Position numbers and translations under genes: made by a program | Notes under the pieces: model-generated | What the model saw: the letters and a program-made list of their open reading frames with translations, nothing else | What the model was told of the DNA's origin: nothing | The model's database searches: none | Part shown: piece after piece, positions 9,912-15,332 of the stretch | Layout: each line of letters begins with the position of its first letter | Numbering within the stretch: the first letter of the stretch is position 1 | Assembly: GCA_017523725.1 (NCBI GenBank) | Contig: JAFWVY010000022.1 | Coordinates: 1 to 64,000 of the forward strand | DNA from: Bacteroidales bacterium | GTDB lineage: Bacteria; Bacteroidota; Bacteroidia; Bacteroidales; UBA4181 | Direction: 5' to 3' | Length of the DNA: 64,000 nucleotides

Positions 9912-11180
9912 CTATGCAGTGGCATGCCGGCGGGGGAAAAAGATGGCGAAAGCCATGGCGACAGCCAGCATATAGACGGCGAAGACGGTCCACGAGACCT
10001 GCCAGCCGTGCATCACCCGGGGCCAGTCAATGGCCCCGGCGTCTATACCGGCCTTGTGTGCATTGACATAGTGGTTGACGACCTTTTGGGCGGCAAATGA
10101 TCCGATGGTTGCTCCTAAACCGTTGGTAAACAACATAAAGAGTCCCTGTGCACTGGCGCGGATACTGTGGTCGGCCTCCTGGTTGACAAACAGCGATCCG
10201 GCGATGTTGAAGAAATTGAAGGCAATGCCGTAAATAACCATGGACATCACCAGCCACCAGCATCCCGGCCCAGGATTTCCGGTCGCGAAGAATGCGAAGC
10301 GCAGCGTCCAGGCAATCAACGCTATCAGCAGCACGGCCTTGATGCCGAACCGTTTCAGGAAAAACGGAACCAGCAGAATGCAAAACAATTCCGAGATCTG
10401 CGACAGCGAAATAAGGATGTTGGCATGCTGTACGCCGAAGGTGTCTCGATAGGCGTCGATGTGCCCGAAATCGGCGATGAAGGGATTGGCGAATCCGTTT
10501 GAAATCTGCAGAGCCATGCCCAGCAGCAGCGACAGCGCGAAGAATATGGCCATTTCCTTGCGCCGCAGCAGTTGCAGTGTCTGCCGGCTGAAGGGCTGGA
10601 CGTGCGACGGGCGGGCCGGTGTCCGGATGAGGCATCCTACGTAAACAGCCTGAGCCAGACCGAGTCCGGCCGCCATGACGTATTGAAGTGATGAACTTTG
10701 CCAGCCGATCAGATCGACTGCCCACATGGCCAGGATGAAACCGGCGGTCCCCCACATGCGGATGGCTGGGAAGTCTTTCGCCGGATCTTTCCCCTCTTGT
10801 TCCAGGGTGCCGTACGATACGGCATTGGACAGGGAAATGGTCGGGAAATAGAATACCATGGCTGTGAAATAAAGCGTAATCATCGGCGCGAAGGTGGCGG
10901 ATGTCCCCGCCGTCTGGCCGTACAGTCCGAGCGAAAGCATAGCCATCGCAGAGCAGATATGGCAGAAGACCAGCAATTTCTGTGCGGAGATGAGCCGGTC
11001 GGCGGCATAGCCGATAAGGGCCGGCATAAACAGAGACACAAATCCCTGTGCCGCATAGAAGTAGCCTATGCGGTCGCCCAAGCCGCACTGGCTTAGATAA
11101 CGTCCCTGAGATGTGAGGTAGCTTCCCCATATTCCGAACTGTAAAAGATACAGCCCGATAAGTCTCGCCTTGGTATTCAT
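9912..11180 (-). CDS. Nucleoside:H+ symporter-family MFS transporter (NupG-like)
   Basis: This 422-residue protein has about twelve hydrophobic segments with the two-times-six pattern of the major facilitator superfamily. The N-terminus (LIGLYLLQFGIWGSYLTSQG) and the IRMWGTAGFI block resemble the nucleoside:proton symporter group, in which an RxWGTxGxI motif is conserved. It would act in the inner membrane; nucleoside uptake is the family expectation, not shown. It converges with the receptor gene (21-base gap without an evident terminator) and has its own -7 box upstream. Confidence 0.85.
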   Translation of the reverse strand: MNTKARLIGLYLLQFGIWGSYLTSQGRYLSQCGLGDRIGYFYAAQGFVSLFMPALIGYAADRLISAQKLLVFCHICSAMAMLSLGLYGQTAGTSATFAPMITLYFTAMVFYFPTISLSNAVSYGTLEQEGKDPAKDFPAIRMWGTAGFILAMWAVDLIGWQSSSLQYVMAAGLGLAQAVYVGCLIRTPARPSHVQPFSRQTLQLLRRKEMAIFFALSLLLGMALQISNGFANPFIADFGHIDAYRDTFGVQHANILISLSQISELFCILLVPFFLKRFGIKAVLLIALIAWTLRFAFFATGNPGPGCWWLVMSMVIYGIAFNFFNIAGSLFVNQEADHSIRASAQGLFMLFTNGLGATIGSFAAQKVVNHYVNAHKAGIDAGAIDWPRVMHGWQVSWTVFAVYMLAVAMAFAIFFPRRHATA

Positions 11181-11246: not shown

Positions 11247-13340
11247 CTAGAATTTACGGATGATCTGGCAACGGACTTCGTCCCGGATGTGACCGTCCAA
11301 GGCATTGAGTCCGCTGCCGATACCCGGTTGCCGGTACCGGGTCCAGGCGTACTTGCAGCGTAGACTCCACTGTCGTTCCACGGTGTATCTGAACATGAGG
11401 GCGGTGTGCCAGCCGCAGCGGTAGTACATGCCGGACGAAAATCCGTACAGCATGTCTTTTTCGGACAGATAAACACTGCTCTGGTAATCGTCGGTACGGA
11501 AGAAGGCTGCCTGCGCATAGCATTGCAACCGCTCCTGCCACAGCAAGATTGTGGCATTCTGGGCCAGGATGAATCCGTTCGACCCGGCCGACTCTTTCCG
11601 ATAGTGTTTGCCTGCTATCTGTGTCTGAAGTGTCAGCCTGGCGGAGGGGACCCATTGGAAACGACACCGGATTTCCTGTTGCCGGACGGATGTGATGCGT
11701 TGGTCCACCGGGCTGCCGGTCCGGTTGACATCCCGTGTCCGCCAGAGCCATTGCAGGGAAAGACTGTTCCGGCGCGATGCCGTGTATTGCATCCGGAGGG
11801 CATAGCGTCGTGCGGAGGACGGAGCGTCAGTGCCGTATTTGAGCCAGGGCATCCTGGCAAGGTCGGCGTAGCCGGACCAGGTCCAACGGCCGGGACCTGG
11901 CAGACTGAATCCCAGATGCCAGCCGTTTTCGTTGGCGACAGACGATGAGGCTCCGGCGGATGTGCCGTACCGAGTATGATAATCGCGGTCGTACCGGCGG
12001 TAGATCATATAGACACAGGCATTACCGGGCCAGAGCCACTGCATGCCGGCTGTCAGCGCCCATGCACCGTTGCCGCTGCGTGCCGTCTCGCCGAATCCCA
12101 GCATCCCGCGCCAGGTGAAACGGAAATCGGCGCCCAGGTTGTATCCGCCGGTTCCACGGTCGGCGAAGAGCCGGTAAGGTTGCACTTCCGGCAGGAACGG
12201 CCGGTCGAAGCGGTATTGCATCCATGTGACGCCGAGGACGCAGTCCGGGACGCGCCATTGCAGGTGTGCGCCTGTCACGGTCTCCCGGACTTGCCGTCTG
12301 TGCGTTTCCTCGCCGGCCGTACGGTGCAATCCTCCGGTCAGGAACGAGGTGAAATAACTGTCGTTTCCCAGTGTGTCCTGCCTGACCAGCCGGGCATCGA
12401 GCGCTGTCCGCGCGTACCATCCGCTCCAGGTCCAGTGCCCCCGGTCGAGCGTACATCCGATGCCGTTCAGGAATCCGGATTCACCGGTCGAGGTGTAAGG
12501 CCGCAGACCGGAGGCCTGACGTTTGGCTGCCGTTGAGAGGGTGGAAATTCCGGCCGAAAAAGCATTGCCGGCAATCAGACCCTGTCCCCAGTCCATTTTG
12601 AAATGGCCCAGCACGATTTTCCGAATGAGGCCTTCTCCTTGGTATGCGAGCGATCCGGCATAGCTGTCAGCGCCATGATGTCCGCCGGTGAAGAACGGTT
12701 CGCCGGCATCCTTGTCCGCCCCGATGTGCAGTTGCCAGCGGCTTCTCCAAGTATAGTCCGCCTTCAGTGTCAGGGTATATGGGTCTCCGAGATAGCGGTT
12801 CGCGGCACTGTCTGGCAGCATGAAGCCTTTGACCGGTTGCAGCTGCCGTCGGGCTGTGGCCACCACTTCTCCTTTGCCTCTCTTGCCGCGCGGGGCATTG
12901 CCGCCGCCGCTGTCCGCCGTCGTGACGAAATACTGCAACCAGCGGGCTGTTTCCTCATCAAATCCGAGGATGTAGGGAATCTCATAGACGGAAGCGATGC
13001 GGCCATGCTCTTTCCGGTAGTGCAACAGACTTTTTATTTGGAAAGAAGAAAGCCAGACAATCCGTTCCAGATCTGCCATGTCGCCCCGGTTCAGATTGAC
13101 AGGATGGTCGTAAAGCGCTTTGGCGATGGCCAGCGATTCCAGATAATATCGTGTCATGGATTCCTCGTCAGGTTCTTCCTGTGCATCGATATCCGCATCG
13201 GTCTGTTGGGCAAGCCACTGTTCCACGGCTTCAAACCCTTCCTTCGAAGACAAACTTGGATTATTCGCAGCAGCAAATGACAGTAATCCGAATCCGCCAA
13301 GCGCCAGTACGGCGTACAGATGTTTCACCATGCTTTGCAT
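11247..13340 (-). CDS. Helix-hairpin-helix / outer-membrane beta-barrel fusion protein
   Basis: From ATG13340 the product is 697 residues with a signal peptide (about 1-26). Residues 80-139 form a ComEA-like helix-hairpin-helix region (PVNLNRGDMADLERI ... GFDEETARWL). The remaining 550 residues show alternating polar and hydrophobic strands, many Trp/Tyr/Arg, repeated WxW and YxxRxxxD patterns, and a C-terminal Phe, as expected of an outer-membrane barrel. Such proteins recur in Bacteroidetes, but I know of no established role. Periplasmic HHH domains can bind DNA, so DNA or nucleotide-related transport is one hypothesis. The start overlaps the upstream gene's end by 16 bases, so translational coupling is likely. 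ATG13331 is an alternative; longer frames lie wholly in the upstream gene. Confidence 0.75.
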   Translation of the reverse strand: MQSMVKHLYAVLALGGFGLLSFAAANNPSLSSKEGFEAVEQWLAQQTDADIDAQEEPDEESMTRYYLESLAIAKALYDHPVNLNRGDMADLERIVWLSSFQIKSLLHYRKEHGRIASVYEIPYILGFDEETARWLQYFVTTADSGGGNAPRGKRGKGEVVATARRQLQPVKGFMLPDSAANRYLGDPYTLTLKADYTWRSRWQLHIGADKDAGEPFFTGGHHGADSYAGSLAYQGEGLIRKIVLGHFKMDWGQGLIAGNAFSAGISTLSTAAKRQASGLRPYTSTGESGFLNGIGCTLDRGHWTWSGWYARTALDARLVRQDTLGNDSYFTSFLTGGLHRTAGEETHRRQVRETVTGAHLQWRVPDCVLGVTWMQYRFDRPFLPEVQPYRLFADRGTGGYNLGADFRFTWRGMLGFGETARSGNGAWALTAGMQWLWPGNACVYMIYRRYDRDYHTRYGTSAGASSSVANENGWHLGFSLPGPGRWTWSGYADLARMPWLKYGTDAPSSARRYALRMQYTASRRNSLSLQWLWRTRDVNRTGSPVDQRITSVRQQEIRCRFQWVPSARLTLQTQIAGKHYRKESAGSNGFILAQNATILLWQERLQCYAQAAFFRTDDYQSSVYLSEKDMLYGFSSGMYYRCGWHTALMFRYTVERQWSLRCKYAWTRYRQPGIGSGLNALDGHIRDEVRCQIIRKF

Positions 13341-14167
13341 AATGTAAAGGATGTGTGTTGTCCCAGGTAGTTGTGCGACATGGATGCCATGTCCAGCCGC
13401 CATCCGGCGTGACGGAAGGTACATCCCAGGCTGAATGCCGCCGTCTCGTCGCAGACGATGCCGCAGCGCAGCGTCAGCAGGTTGGAAGGCTGATATTCAA
13501 AGCCGGCATGGCATGTGCCGCGCCGGACACGTTCGTCGTACCGGCACCATTCGGCGACACACAGTGTTTGTCCGGACAGCCGGTAGCCGCAACCGATGCG
13601 GTATCGGACGTGACGGCAGCTCTGCGGCAGTACAGTGCGGTCGTCGAGAGTCAGACGGGAGGCAAGGAATCCGAAAACCAGCGTTTCCGTCGGATGCCAT
13701 TGCAGGGCCAGCGCGCCTGACAGATGCCAGGTGTTCCGTCCTTCGTCAGAACCGGCATGTGCCATATCCCAGCGGATACCGGCCGGCATTTTCGGCAACA
13801 GGCGGCATGCCCATGCAAGACCGAGTTCTGTTTCGTGATACAGAGGATATCCGAAGTGTTGCATCCGGATGGCGGCGACCCATCTTACCGGTGCTCCGCG
13901 CGGCCGATACGGCACGATGGCAAAGGCTTCGCGGACGGCTATCTCGCGGATGCCGAATCCATTATGATATCCAATCCCCACACTTGCAGATGTCTGTTCC
14001 GGTAATGCTGCGATGCCCGCACAGGCGGTGGCCGCATCGTCCAGTACGGTCACCACTGCGCCCATACCCATCGAGCGGGCGGACAGGAAGATGGTTTCGG
14101 CCACGAGCGGAGAATACAGGCCGTTTATCAGGCAGAAGACTGCCAGAAGCAAGCGTGTGGAAGGCAT
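13325..14167 (-). CDS. PorV/FadL-like predicted outer-membrane protein of unknown function
   Basis: This 280-residue protein has a signal peptide (about 1-23). The N-terminal segment ARSMGMGAVVTVLDDAATACAGIAAL matches in style the 'NPA/N' entry of PorV- and FadL-type barrels, where an early Gly-Met-Gly and a DD-A-A-N/G pattern is common. The rest alternates strand-like stretches rich in Arg, Cys, Tyr and Trp; seven or more cysteines is unusual for a Bacteroidales barrel. It overlaps the HHH-barrel gene and probably forms one transcription unit with it. The two proteins may act together in the outer membrane; that is inference. Confidence 0.65.
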   Translation of the reverse strand: MPSTRLLLAVFCLINGLYSPLVAETIFLSARSMGMGAVVTVLDDAATACAGIAALPEQTSASVGIGYHNGFGIREIAVREAFAIVPYRPRGAPVRWVAAIRMQHFGYPLYHETELGLAWACRLLPKMPAGIRWDMAHAGSDEGRNTWHLSGALALQWHPTETLVFGFLASRLTLDDRTVLPQSCRHVRYRIGCGYRLSGQTLCVAEWCRYDERVRRGTCHAGFEYQPSNLLTLRCGIVCDETAAFSLGCTFRHAGWRLDMASMSHNYLGQHTSFTLCKAW

Positions 14168-14204: not shown

Positions 14205-14244
14205 ATACTAATCCGAAAAACTTATGCCGATTGAGGCAAAAATC

Positions 14245-14274
14245 TTGGATGCGCTGTTTTTTTTACTATTTTTG
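14245..14274 (+). promoter_or_regulatory. Putative promoter of the ruvX operon
   Basis: TATTTTTG (14267-14274) lies 18 bases after TTGG (14245-14248). Transcription would start near 14281, which rules out the upstream ATG at 14224 and supports the GTG start at 14299. Confidence 0.6.
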
Positions 14275-14298
14275 TTCATCCTATACCTCTGTATCTAC

Positions 14299-14781
14299 GT
14301 GGGAAGAATCATCGCCATCGATTACGGAAAGAAACGCACAGGACTGGCTGTCACGGATGAGCAGCAGCGCATTGCGACGCCCCTGGACACGGTGCCGACT
14401 GCAAGTCTGGTGTCGTACCTGGTCAGCTACATGTCCCGTGAACCGGTCGAAGCCATGGTGATAGGCTGGCCGGTCCAGTTAGACGGCACGCCGTCTGAGA
14501 CGCAGAAACAGTATGTGGAGCCGGCTATCCGGCAATTGCGCAAAATCTTTCCCGATATCCGTCTGGAAACGATGGACGAGCGGTTCACCTCCAAAATGGC
14601 TTTCCAGAGTATGATTGACGGAGGTCTGCGCAAGAAGGACCGGCGGGACAAAGGCACCATTGACCGGGTCAGTGCCGTCATCCTGCTGCAATCGTATCTG
14701 ATCCGGCAACAAATGGAGGCTGAACGCACCGCCGCACAGTCGGAAAACAGGACCGCCGCCTCCGCATCCTTTCTGATATGA
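14299..14781 (+). CDS. ruvX: RuvX/YqgF Holliday-junction resolvase-like nuclease
   Basis: From GTG14299 the product is 160 residues and begins directly with the family's first strand, [20 protein letters not shown], where RuvX proteins normally start. The RNase H-like fold carries Asp8 in IAIDYG and later motifs ERFTSK and [14 protein letters not shown]. Family members act in 16S rRNA 5' end maturation and may resolve junctions. The open frame continues upstream to ATG14224, adding a hydrophobic stretch that looks like a membrane helix, but the likely promoter lies in that extension. The stop overlaps the def start (ATGA), so coupling is likely. Confidence 0.9.
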
Positions 14782-15332
14782 CACTTCCTATTTATTTGTA
14801 TGGATGGCCGCTGCTGCGCAAGCCCTCCGAAGACATCACCCCGGATTATCCGGGGCTCCAGACATTGATTGCCGACATGTTCGAAACCATGTACAAGGCG
14901 GACGGCGTCGGCCTGGCAGGTCCCCAGATCGGCCGGAACATCCGGATTTTCGTCGTGGACGCTTCACCGCTTGACGAGGACGATCCGTCGCTTGCGGGTT
15001 TCAAGAGAACGTTCATCAATGCGCATATCACGGAACGTGGCGGCGAACCTTTCCTGTACAATGAAGGCTGCCTCAGCCTGCCAGGTATCCATGAGGATGT
15101 GAGCCGGCCGTCCTGGATTGAGATGACATACCGCGATGAGAATTTTGTGGAGCACCACGAACGTTTCGAGGGCTATGCCGCACGGGTCATCCAGCACGAA
15201 TATGACCACCTCGACGGTAAACTGTTCATAGACTATGTCTCGCCGCTCCGGCGGAAACTGCTGCTGCCCAAACTGACCATGATGGCCAAAGGAAAGGCCC
15301 GCACTTCATACAAAATCAAACGGATGAAATAA
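14778..15332 (+). CDS. def: Peptide deformylase
   Basis: This 184-residue metalloenzyme removes the formyl group from the N-terminal methionine of new proteins in the cytoplasm. All three signatures are present: motif [11 protein letters not shown], motif [10 protein letters not shown] (Cys metal ligand) and motif [11 protein letters not shown] (two His ligands and the catalytic Glu). Length is typical. It overlaps ruvX by four bases and is followed after five bases by lysA, so the three probably share one mRNA. Confidence 0.97.

Follow-up and report, generated by a model that had tools for sequence, protein, structure and literature searches.

We propose that P0001, a 697-residue protein encoded in the window (by which we mean the whole 64,000-nucleotide stretch of the Bacteroidales contig JAFWVY010000022.1 that was analysed), works at the outer membrane of Bacteroidota in the ComEC-dependent uptake of DNA, either as a channel or as a docking part, and we put the probability of this reading at about one half. 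The computed basis consists of the predicted fold, the conservation across the phylum, the neighbourhood of comEC in one order, the joint decay with comEC, a trend for dprA, and the independence of the type IX secretion system (T9SS); we infer the topology, the contact between the subunits, the direction of transport, and DNA as the substrate. Because the barrel adjoins comEC in one order and decays along with that gene, it may be a missing outer-membrane part of DNA uptake.

The gene pair and the predicted folds

P0001 and its partner P0002 constitute an overlapping pair (Table 1), with P0002 upstream and P0001 downstream, and both reading frames lie where the preliminary description had located them, with the 16 shared bases that it had reported. 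An overlap or a very short gap between the two genes was seen in the relatives too, and translational coupling of P0002 and P0001 through the 16-base overlap is likely. The signal peptides of both proteins, including the one already attributed to P0001, were called by eye; since that of P0001 begins at 13340, an alternative and longer start at the ATG at 13424, within the P0002 gene, is less likely.

Table 1. Features of the gene pair in the window (positions in nucleotides; aa, amino acids)
Feature	Positions	Strand	Remarks
HHH-barrel gene P0001	11247..13340	(-)	697 aa; reading-frame coordinates as in the preliminary description
Parts of P0001			signal peptide ~1-25, acidic linker, HHH_3 79-139, barrel 156-696
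FadL/PorV-fold partner gene P0002	13325..14167	(-)	280 aa; signal peptide ~1-23; 14 strands (predicted)
Overlap of the P0001 and P0002 frames	13325..13340	(-)	16 bases
HHH_3 (ComEA-like) domain of P0001	12924..13106	(-)	residues 79-139; divergent, hairpin glycines lost
Large beta-barrel of P0001 (predicted)	11253..12875	(-)	residues 156-696; 24-26 strands

On the same strand, some 67 b downstream of P0001, lies a gene for a nucleoside H+ symporter (PF03825, 329 bits; 9912-11180 (-)), and upstream of the pair, divergently transcribed, are ruvX and a peptide deformylase gene (14224-15332 (+)). The G+C content of the pair (11247-14167) is 0.59 versus 0.54 for the window. The many cysteines that had been remarked upon in the partner are real as a count, the two proteins holding 12 and 8 against a median of 1 in the relatives, but they are not conserved, no Cys column of P0002 having that residue in more than 2 of 30-43 relatives; we accordingly rejected cysteine richness as a family trait and regard it as a local oddity.

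Each protein was modelled alone with AlphaFold2, from 60 aligned sequences for P0001 and 44 for P0002, and a barrel was obtained in both instances. The P0001 model (mb86e57ccc289; pLDDT 86.5, pTM 0.84) has a helical N-terminal part containing the helix-hairpin-helix (HHH) domain, followed by a barrel with 24 strands of at least 9 residues plus shorter ones, which agrees with the earlier notice of a barrel-like region of about 550 residues ending in Phe, the C-terminal residue being indeed Phe. According to a rough periodicity rule, the inward-facing strand positions of the barrel have a median net charge of only +8. When the barrel was compared with the folds in the PDB, the best matches were the usher pores FimD and PapC, with a modest Z of 13-14 (FimD 13.8), followed by TonB receptors and OccK (each about 12), LptD (11.8), and AlgE; the scores overall ranged from 11 to 14, those of the usher, LptD, TonB-receptor, and OccK folds being near each other, and no close solved relative was present among the families listed in that comparison. 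PDB sequence searches likewise returned no relative of the barrel part, the HHH region alone being matched, and the weak UreD, YadA_anchor, and FapF matches in the domain scans of both proteins were dropped as far under the cut-offs.

For P0002, the model is a 14-strand barrel (pLDDT 90.3) whose closest folds are those of FadL (Z 30.1, rmsd 2.4, 248 aligned) and of PorV, a subunit of the T9SS (Z 29.2), while three chains of the BAM complex (BamG) score lower than PorV, at 24-25; the earlier designation of the partner as a PorV/FadL-like barrel thus agrees with the predicted structure. Since its PorV_fam (NF033709) score is 26.6 bits versus a cut-off of 90, we consider P0002 a member of the FadL/PorV fold family and do not class it as PorV. 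A PDB sequence search with P0002 gave nothing convincing.

The ComEA-like region recognized at the outset was recovered in the Pfam scan as an HHH_3 match at residues 79-139 of P0001, with an E of 3.3e-4 and a score of 21.1 bits that stays under the Pfam cut-off of 27; the same domain nevertheless scores 66.1 and 65.1 bits in two relatives from other classes (L119 and L121, respectively) and, by our own count, passes the cut-off in 16 barrel genes among the rows scanned, so that the match in P0001 is not a chance one. In the PDB sequence search, moreover, the barrel-family profile A1 matched ComE operon protein 1 (8dss; E 2.8e-5). The GhG hairpins of ComEA-type HHH domains make the contact with the DNA phosphate. 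Among the 60 rows of alignment A3 the first hairpin is mostly x-L-S/N/T, its glycines being gone, and the second is mostly of the G-F-D type, with one glycine kept; the HHH-barrels of Bacteroidia have thus lost the hairpin glycines, the hairpins being nearer to canonical in L119 (IPGIS and VPGIG) and L120. The median net charge is -3 for the HHH part and -9 for the linker that precedes it. With the hairpin glycines lost and the periplasmic part acidic, the HHH domain as a grip on DNA is plausible for the ancestor, whose intact GhG hairpins may have bound DNA, and, to judge from the sequences, doubtful in this lineage, where the domain is probably now a docking or gating module. The ComEA-like identity given to the HHH region at the outset stands. 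The source genome encodes a separate ComEA-like protein of 264 aa, anchored and with an intact GIG hairpin; within the end of its gene (L152, 1935-2729 (-), contig C48) an ExbB/TolQ-like frame of the same orientation begins.

Distribution of the barrel and independence of the T9SS

A search for related loci with the single P0001 protein found no relatives; a profile search in the named records found 559, of which the best 80 were kept, with Tannerella forsythia, Parabacteroides, Pontibacter, Hymenobacter, Pedobacter, Sphingobacterium, and Flavobacteriales MAGs among them. P0001 was matched in 52 of 60 relatives of the source genome. In the phylum sample, the HHH-barrel occurs, by our own count, in 168 of 218 genomes at E≤1e-20, and 196 genomes match the profile at E≤1e-3; we scored the barrel as present at E≤1e-20 only, the matches between the two thresholds being probably other HHH proteins.

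The co-occurrence of the two genes, on which the description of a pair depended, holds in most of the loci: a FadL-like gene lies upstream of the barrel gene in 67 of the 80, in 61 of them within 400 b and often overlapping, T. forsythia ATCC 43037 (L051) being one of the carriers of both genes. Such a gene was present in 12 of 20 further loci, mostly from other classes, was missing at the four green sulfur loci read, and in Sphingobacteriales is often missing though the barrel stays; the FadL-fold partner is not obligatory for the barrel.

SprA was found in 169 of the 218 genomes and was absent from 49, namely G061 and 48 genomes of family f65, and the barrel was present in all 49 of these SprA-less genomes (20 named individually and the remainder from our own count), hence in 48/48 of f65. 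Conversely, family f53, which we take to be Flavobacteriaceae, has SprA in 21/21 genomes and the barrel (E≤1e-20) in 0/21. Because every SprA-less genome sampled carries the barrel, the latter does not depend on the T9SS, and the type IX secretion role that had been offered as one of two guesses is not supported. We identify f65 with the green sulfur bacteria because a chlorosome protein was found in 4/4 of its genomes tested, versus 0/3 others.

A barrel with a FadL-fold partner could also be a translocon for the export of proteins or lipoproteins, resembling SprA-PorV with another cargo, the HHH domain docking periplasmic partners. The architecture parallels that of SprA-PorV and BamA-BamG, a general envelope task would fit the phylum-wide spread, and the DNA-binding glycines are gone from the HHH; still, the family is SprA-independent, the partner is often missing, and the translocon would leave unexplained the comEC neighbourhood and the joint decay described below. 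We judge such an export function unlikely.

Among genomes of the same class, a strong DUF5689 match (E≤1e-40) was found in 27 of 30 without the barrel versus 4 of 24 with it, DUF5689 being a domain of RA0C_RS04920 of Riemerella anatipestifer, as given in PMC8459023. These matches contain hints that a DUF5689 protein might replace the barrel where the barrel is absent; the pattern follows phylogeny, and as a replacement marker DUF5689 was set aside, being confounded in this way and no proof of orthology to RA0C_RS04920. BT3167 of B. thetaiotaomicron, which appears in PMC10434189 as a helix-hairpin-helix protein, could not be tied to the barrel family.

Linkage to comEC, joint decay, and a trend for dprA

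When the neighbourhoods of the 80 named loci were clustered, comEC was the next gene in ten, all of them in records that we take to be Sphingobacteriales from the MAG and strain names; the gap between barrel and comEC ranged from -13 to +7 b in nine of the ten, the exception being L091, whose called comEC frame starts 788 b downstream. In a follow-up sample of 151 genomes of that order, the barrel was matched in 104 and comEC in 146, and of the 104 barrel-bearing genomes 102 have comEC directly downstream of the barrel and in the same orientation, the exceptions being G413, with comEC about 16 kb away, and G374, with no comEC match and with fragments of both genes. The comEC-linked genomes belong to one order and one family (f50), no such adjacency having been seen outside Sphingobacteriales in the phylum sample or in the 20 further loci. 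In the source genome, comEC is on a contig other than that of the barrel, and dprA is also present.

Plain co-occurrence of barrel and comEC says little because comEC is found in 215 of the 218 phylum genomes; the three that lack it (G226, G266, and G274) have no barrel match, and neither sample (218 genomes of the phylum, 151 of the order) contains a genome with an intact barrel and without comEC. Genus g70, by our own count, has a barrel match in 0/43 genomes and keeps comEC in 42/43; in three of the five g70 loci read (L135, L136, and L137) both the FadL-like and the barrel genes are missing from the same site. That site lies between a small MerR-like regulator gene, which elsewhere precedes the barrel, and comEC. 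The dprA gene is a fragment in G389, a member of g70 that has no comEC.

Joint decay was tabulated over 107 scorable Sphingobacteriales genomes outside g70, G364 being dropped for a contig break, and comEC frames that fell short at the C terminus but had no further fragments (e.g., G386 and G380) being scored as intact. The barrel was defective or absent in 13 genomes (G308, G385, G415, G421, G374, G290, G362, G403, G357, G398, G399, G309, and G333); inspection of the loci showed the lesion in nine of these and the absence in G308, and G385, G415, and G421 were scored from the lack of any match in the genome searches. In eight of those 13 (G308, G385, G415, G421, G374, G290, G403, and G357) comEC was defective or absent too, compared with three of the 94 barrel-intact genomes (G319, G352, and G408), so that the counts for both, barrel only, comEC only, and neither were 8/5/3/91 (p 6e-7, the related genomes not being independent). 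With whole-locus losses left out, the counts became 4/5/3/91 (p 9e-4, uncorrected for relatedness); G309 and G333 have a stop at the same place that may represent one event, and merging them gave p 5e-4. In G308 (L140), other genes occupy the expected site of the barrel gene and of the comEC start, and one place among these genes matches a second dprA (G308:C34:154339-154962).

Since neighbouring genes may go in one deletion, we also examined dprA, which lies elsewhere in the genome. It was defective or absent in three of the 13 barrel-defective genomes (G421, G374, and G362) versus one of the 94 others (G380), with p 0.005; the absence in G380 may be a gap, that assembly being in about 620 contigs. 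Without G421 and with G309 and G333 merged, the trend was weaker (p 0.03, one-sided, uncorrected for relatedness). Of the two guesses made at first, DNA uptake is the better supported, given the adjacency to comEC and the joint decay.

Were the comEC adjacency an accident of one order, the barrel might be a channel through which a nutrient, a polysaccharide, or a lipid is taken up or expelled, as the similar Z of the usher, TonB-receptor, OccK, and AlgE folds and the nucleoside symporter gene in the window would allow; that symporter, however, was seen beside the barrel gene in none of the 80 clustered loci, the barrel decays jointly with comEC and dprA, and nutrient porins are not expected to be conserved across most of a phylum, which considerations make a solute channel improbable in our view. 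Very unlikely, we think, is that DNA is scavenged as nucleotide food and not for transformation, DNA entering by the HHH-barrel and comEC or nucleases acting after it, for which the adjoining symporter gene and the retention of comEC throughout nearly the whole phylum sample might speak, but against which stand the same decay trend in the transformation gene dprA and a conserved neighbourhood of the clustered loci in which no nuclease was recognised.

Proposed role and known systems

If P0001 is a component of DNA uptake, the protein, once exported by its signal peptide, would hold the acidic linker and the HHH domain in the periplasm, followed by a barrel whose 24-26 strands would be wide enough for a large substrate, with the FadL-fold partner beside it as an accessory subunit, in the manner of PorV on SprA and BamG on BamA. 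DNA would cross the outer membrane through the barrel, or the barrel would be a station that hands DNA on, and from there DNA would pass to the periplasmic ComEA-like protein and then to ComEC. More tentative, and in our estimation possible rather than probable, is the narrower proposal that, in Bacteroidota and green sulfur bacteria, the barrel itself forms the channel for DNA in the outer membrane. One chain would then supply both the 24-26-strand barrel and a ComEA-like module on the periplasmic side, with a FadL-fold protein flanking it, and would take the part that PilQ plays elsewhere; in Flavobacteriaceae-like genomes, proteins of the RA0C_RS04915/04920 type would have replaced it.

What likens the P0001 barrel to PilQ, the pore used in DNA uptake, is its proposed task of letting DNA pass the outer membrane; PilQ, however, is a multimeric secretin, whereas P0001 is predicted to be a single-chain barrel and its Pfam scan contained no secretin domain. 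With ComEA, the periplasmic HHH receptor for DNA, P0001 shares an HHH_3 domain of some 60 residues, expected to be periplasmic, and the profile match to ComE operon protein 1, but differs in the fusion of that domain to a large barrel and in the hairpin glycines lost in Bacteroidia. BamA carries POTRA domains where P0001 has the HHH, no BamA was among the fold matches listed, and the BamG chains resemble P0002 less than PorV does; yet the BAM complex of Bacteroidota, as it has been described, shares with our pair the proposed arrangement of a large machine in the outer membrane with an accessory subunit of the FadL fold. The SprA-PorV translocon likewise combines a large barrel with a 14-strand FadL-fold subunit, but SprA is described as having 36 strands, and the P0001 family is present where SprA is absent. 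FadL-fold subunits on these two machines, PorV on SprA and BamG on BamA, are described in PMC10994853, PMC12578637, and PMC12611786, and the ComEA of Vibrio is proposed in PMC3879209 to pull DNA as it emerges from PilQ.

In favour of the uptake role, the barrel occurs in groups with transformable members: T. forsythia, which has the pair and for which Nishikawa and Tanaka 2013 report natural competence in their title, and the green sulfur bacteria, species of which are naturally transformed according to PMC3613366. Against it count the lack of the barrel in f53, taken as the family where the naturally transformable Riemerella belongs; the retention of comEC without the barrel in g70; the comEC link in a single order; and the lost HHH glycines together with the charges of the HHH, the linker, and the barrel interior. 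RA0C_RS04915 and RA0C_RS04920 of R. anatipestifer are, like P0001, from this phylum and predicted to be outer-membrane and surface proteins, are needed for transformation, and belong to a screen whose proteins PMC8459023 describes as widely distributed in Flavobacteriaceae; they are nonetheless different proteins from the HHH-barrel, which Riemerella probably lacks, and DUF5689, commoner where the barrel is absent, is possibly a replacement. Within the open-access literature we found neither a description of an HHH-barrel protein nor a mutant of the barrel gene.

On the crossing of the outer membrane by DNA in Bacteroidota, we found in that literature a single screen, that of Riemerella (PMC8459023), and the barrel is a concrete, testable candidate for DNA uptake that most of the phylum carries, among them species of the gut and the mouth as well as the green sulfur bacteria. 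If the proposal is true, the phylum would have in the partner a third FadL-fold protein that flanks a large machine of the outer membrane.
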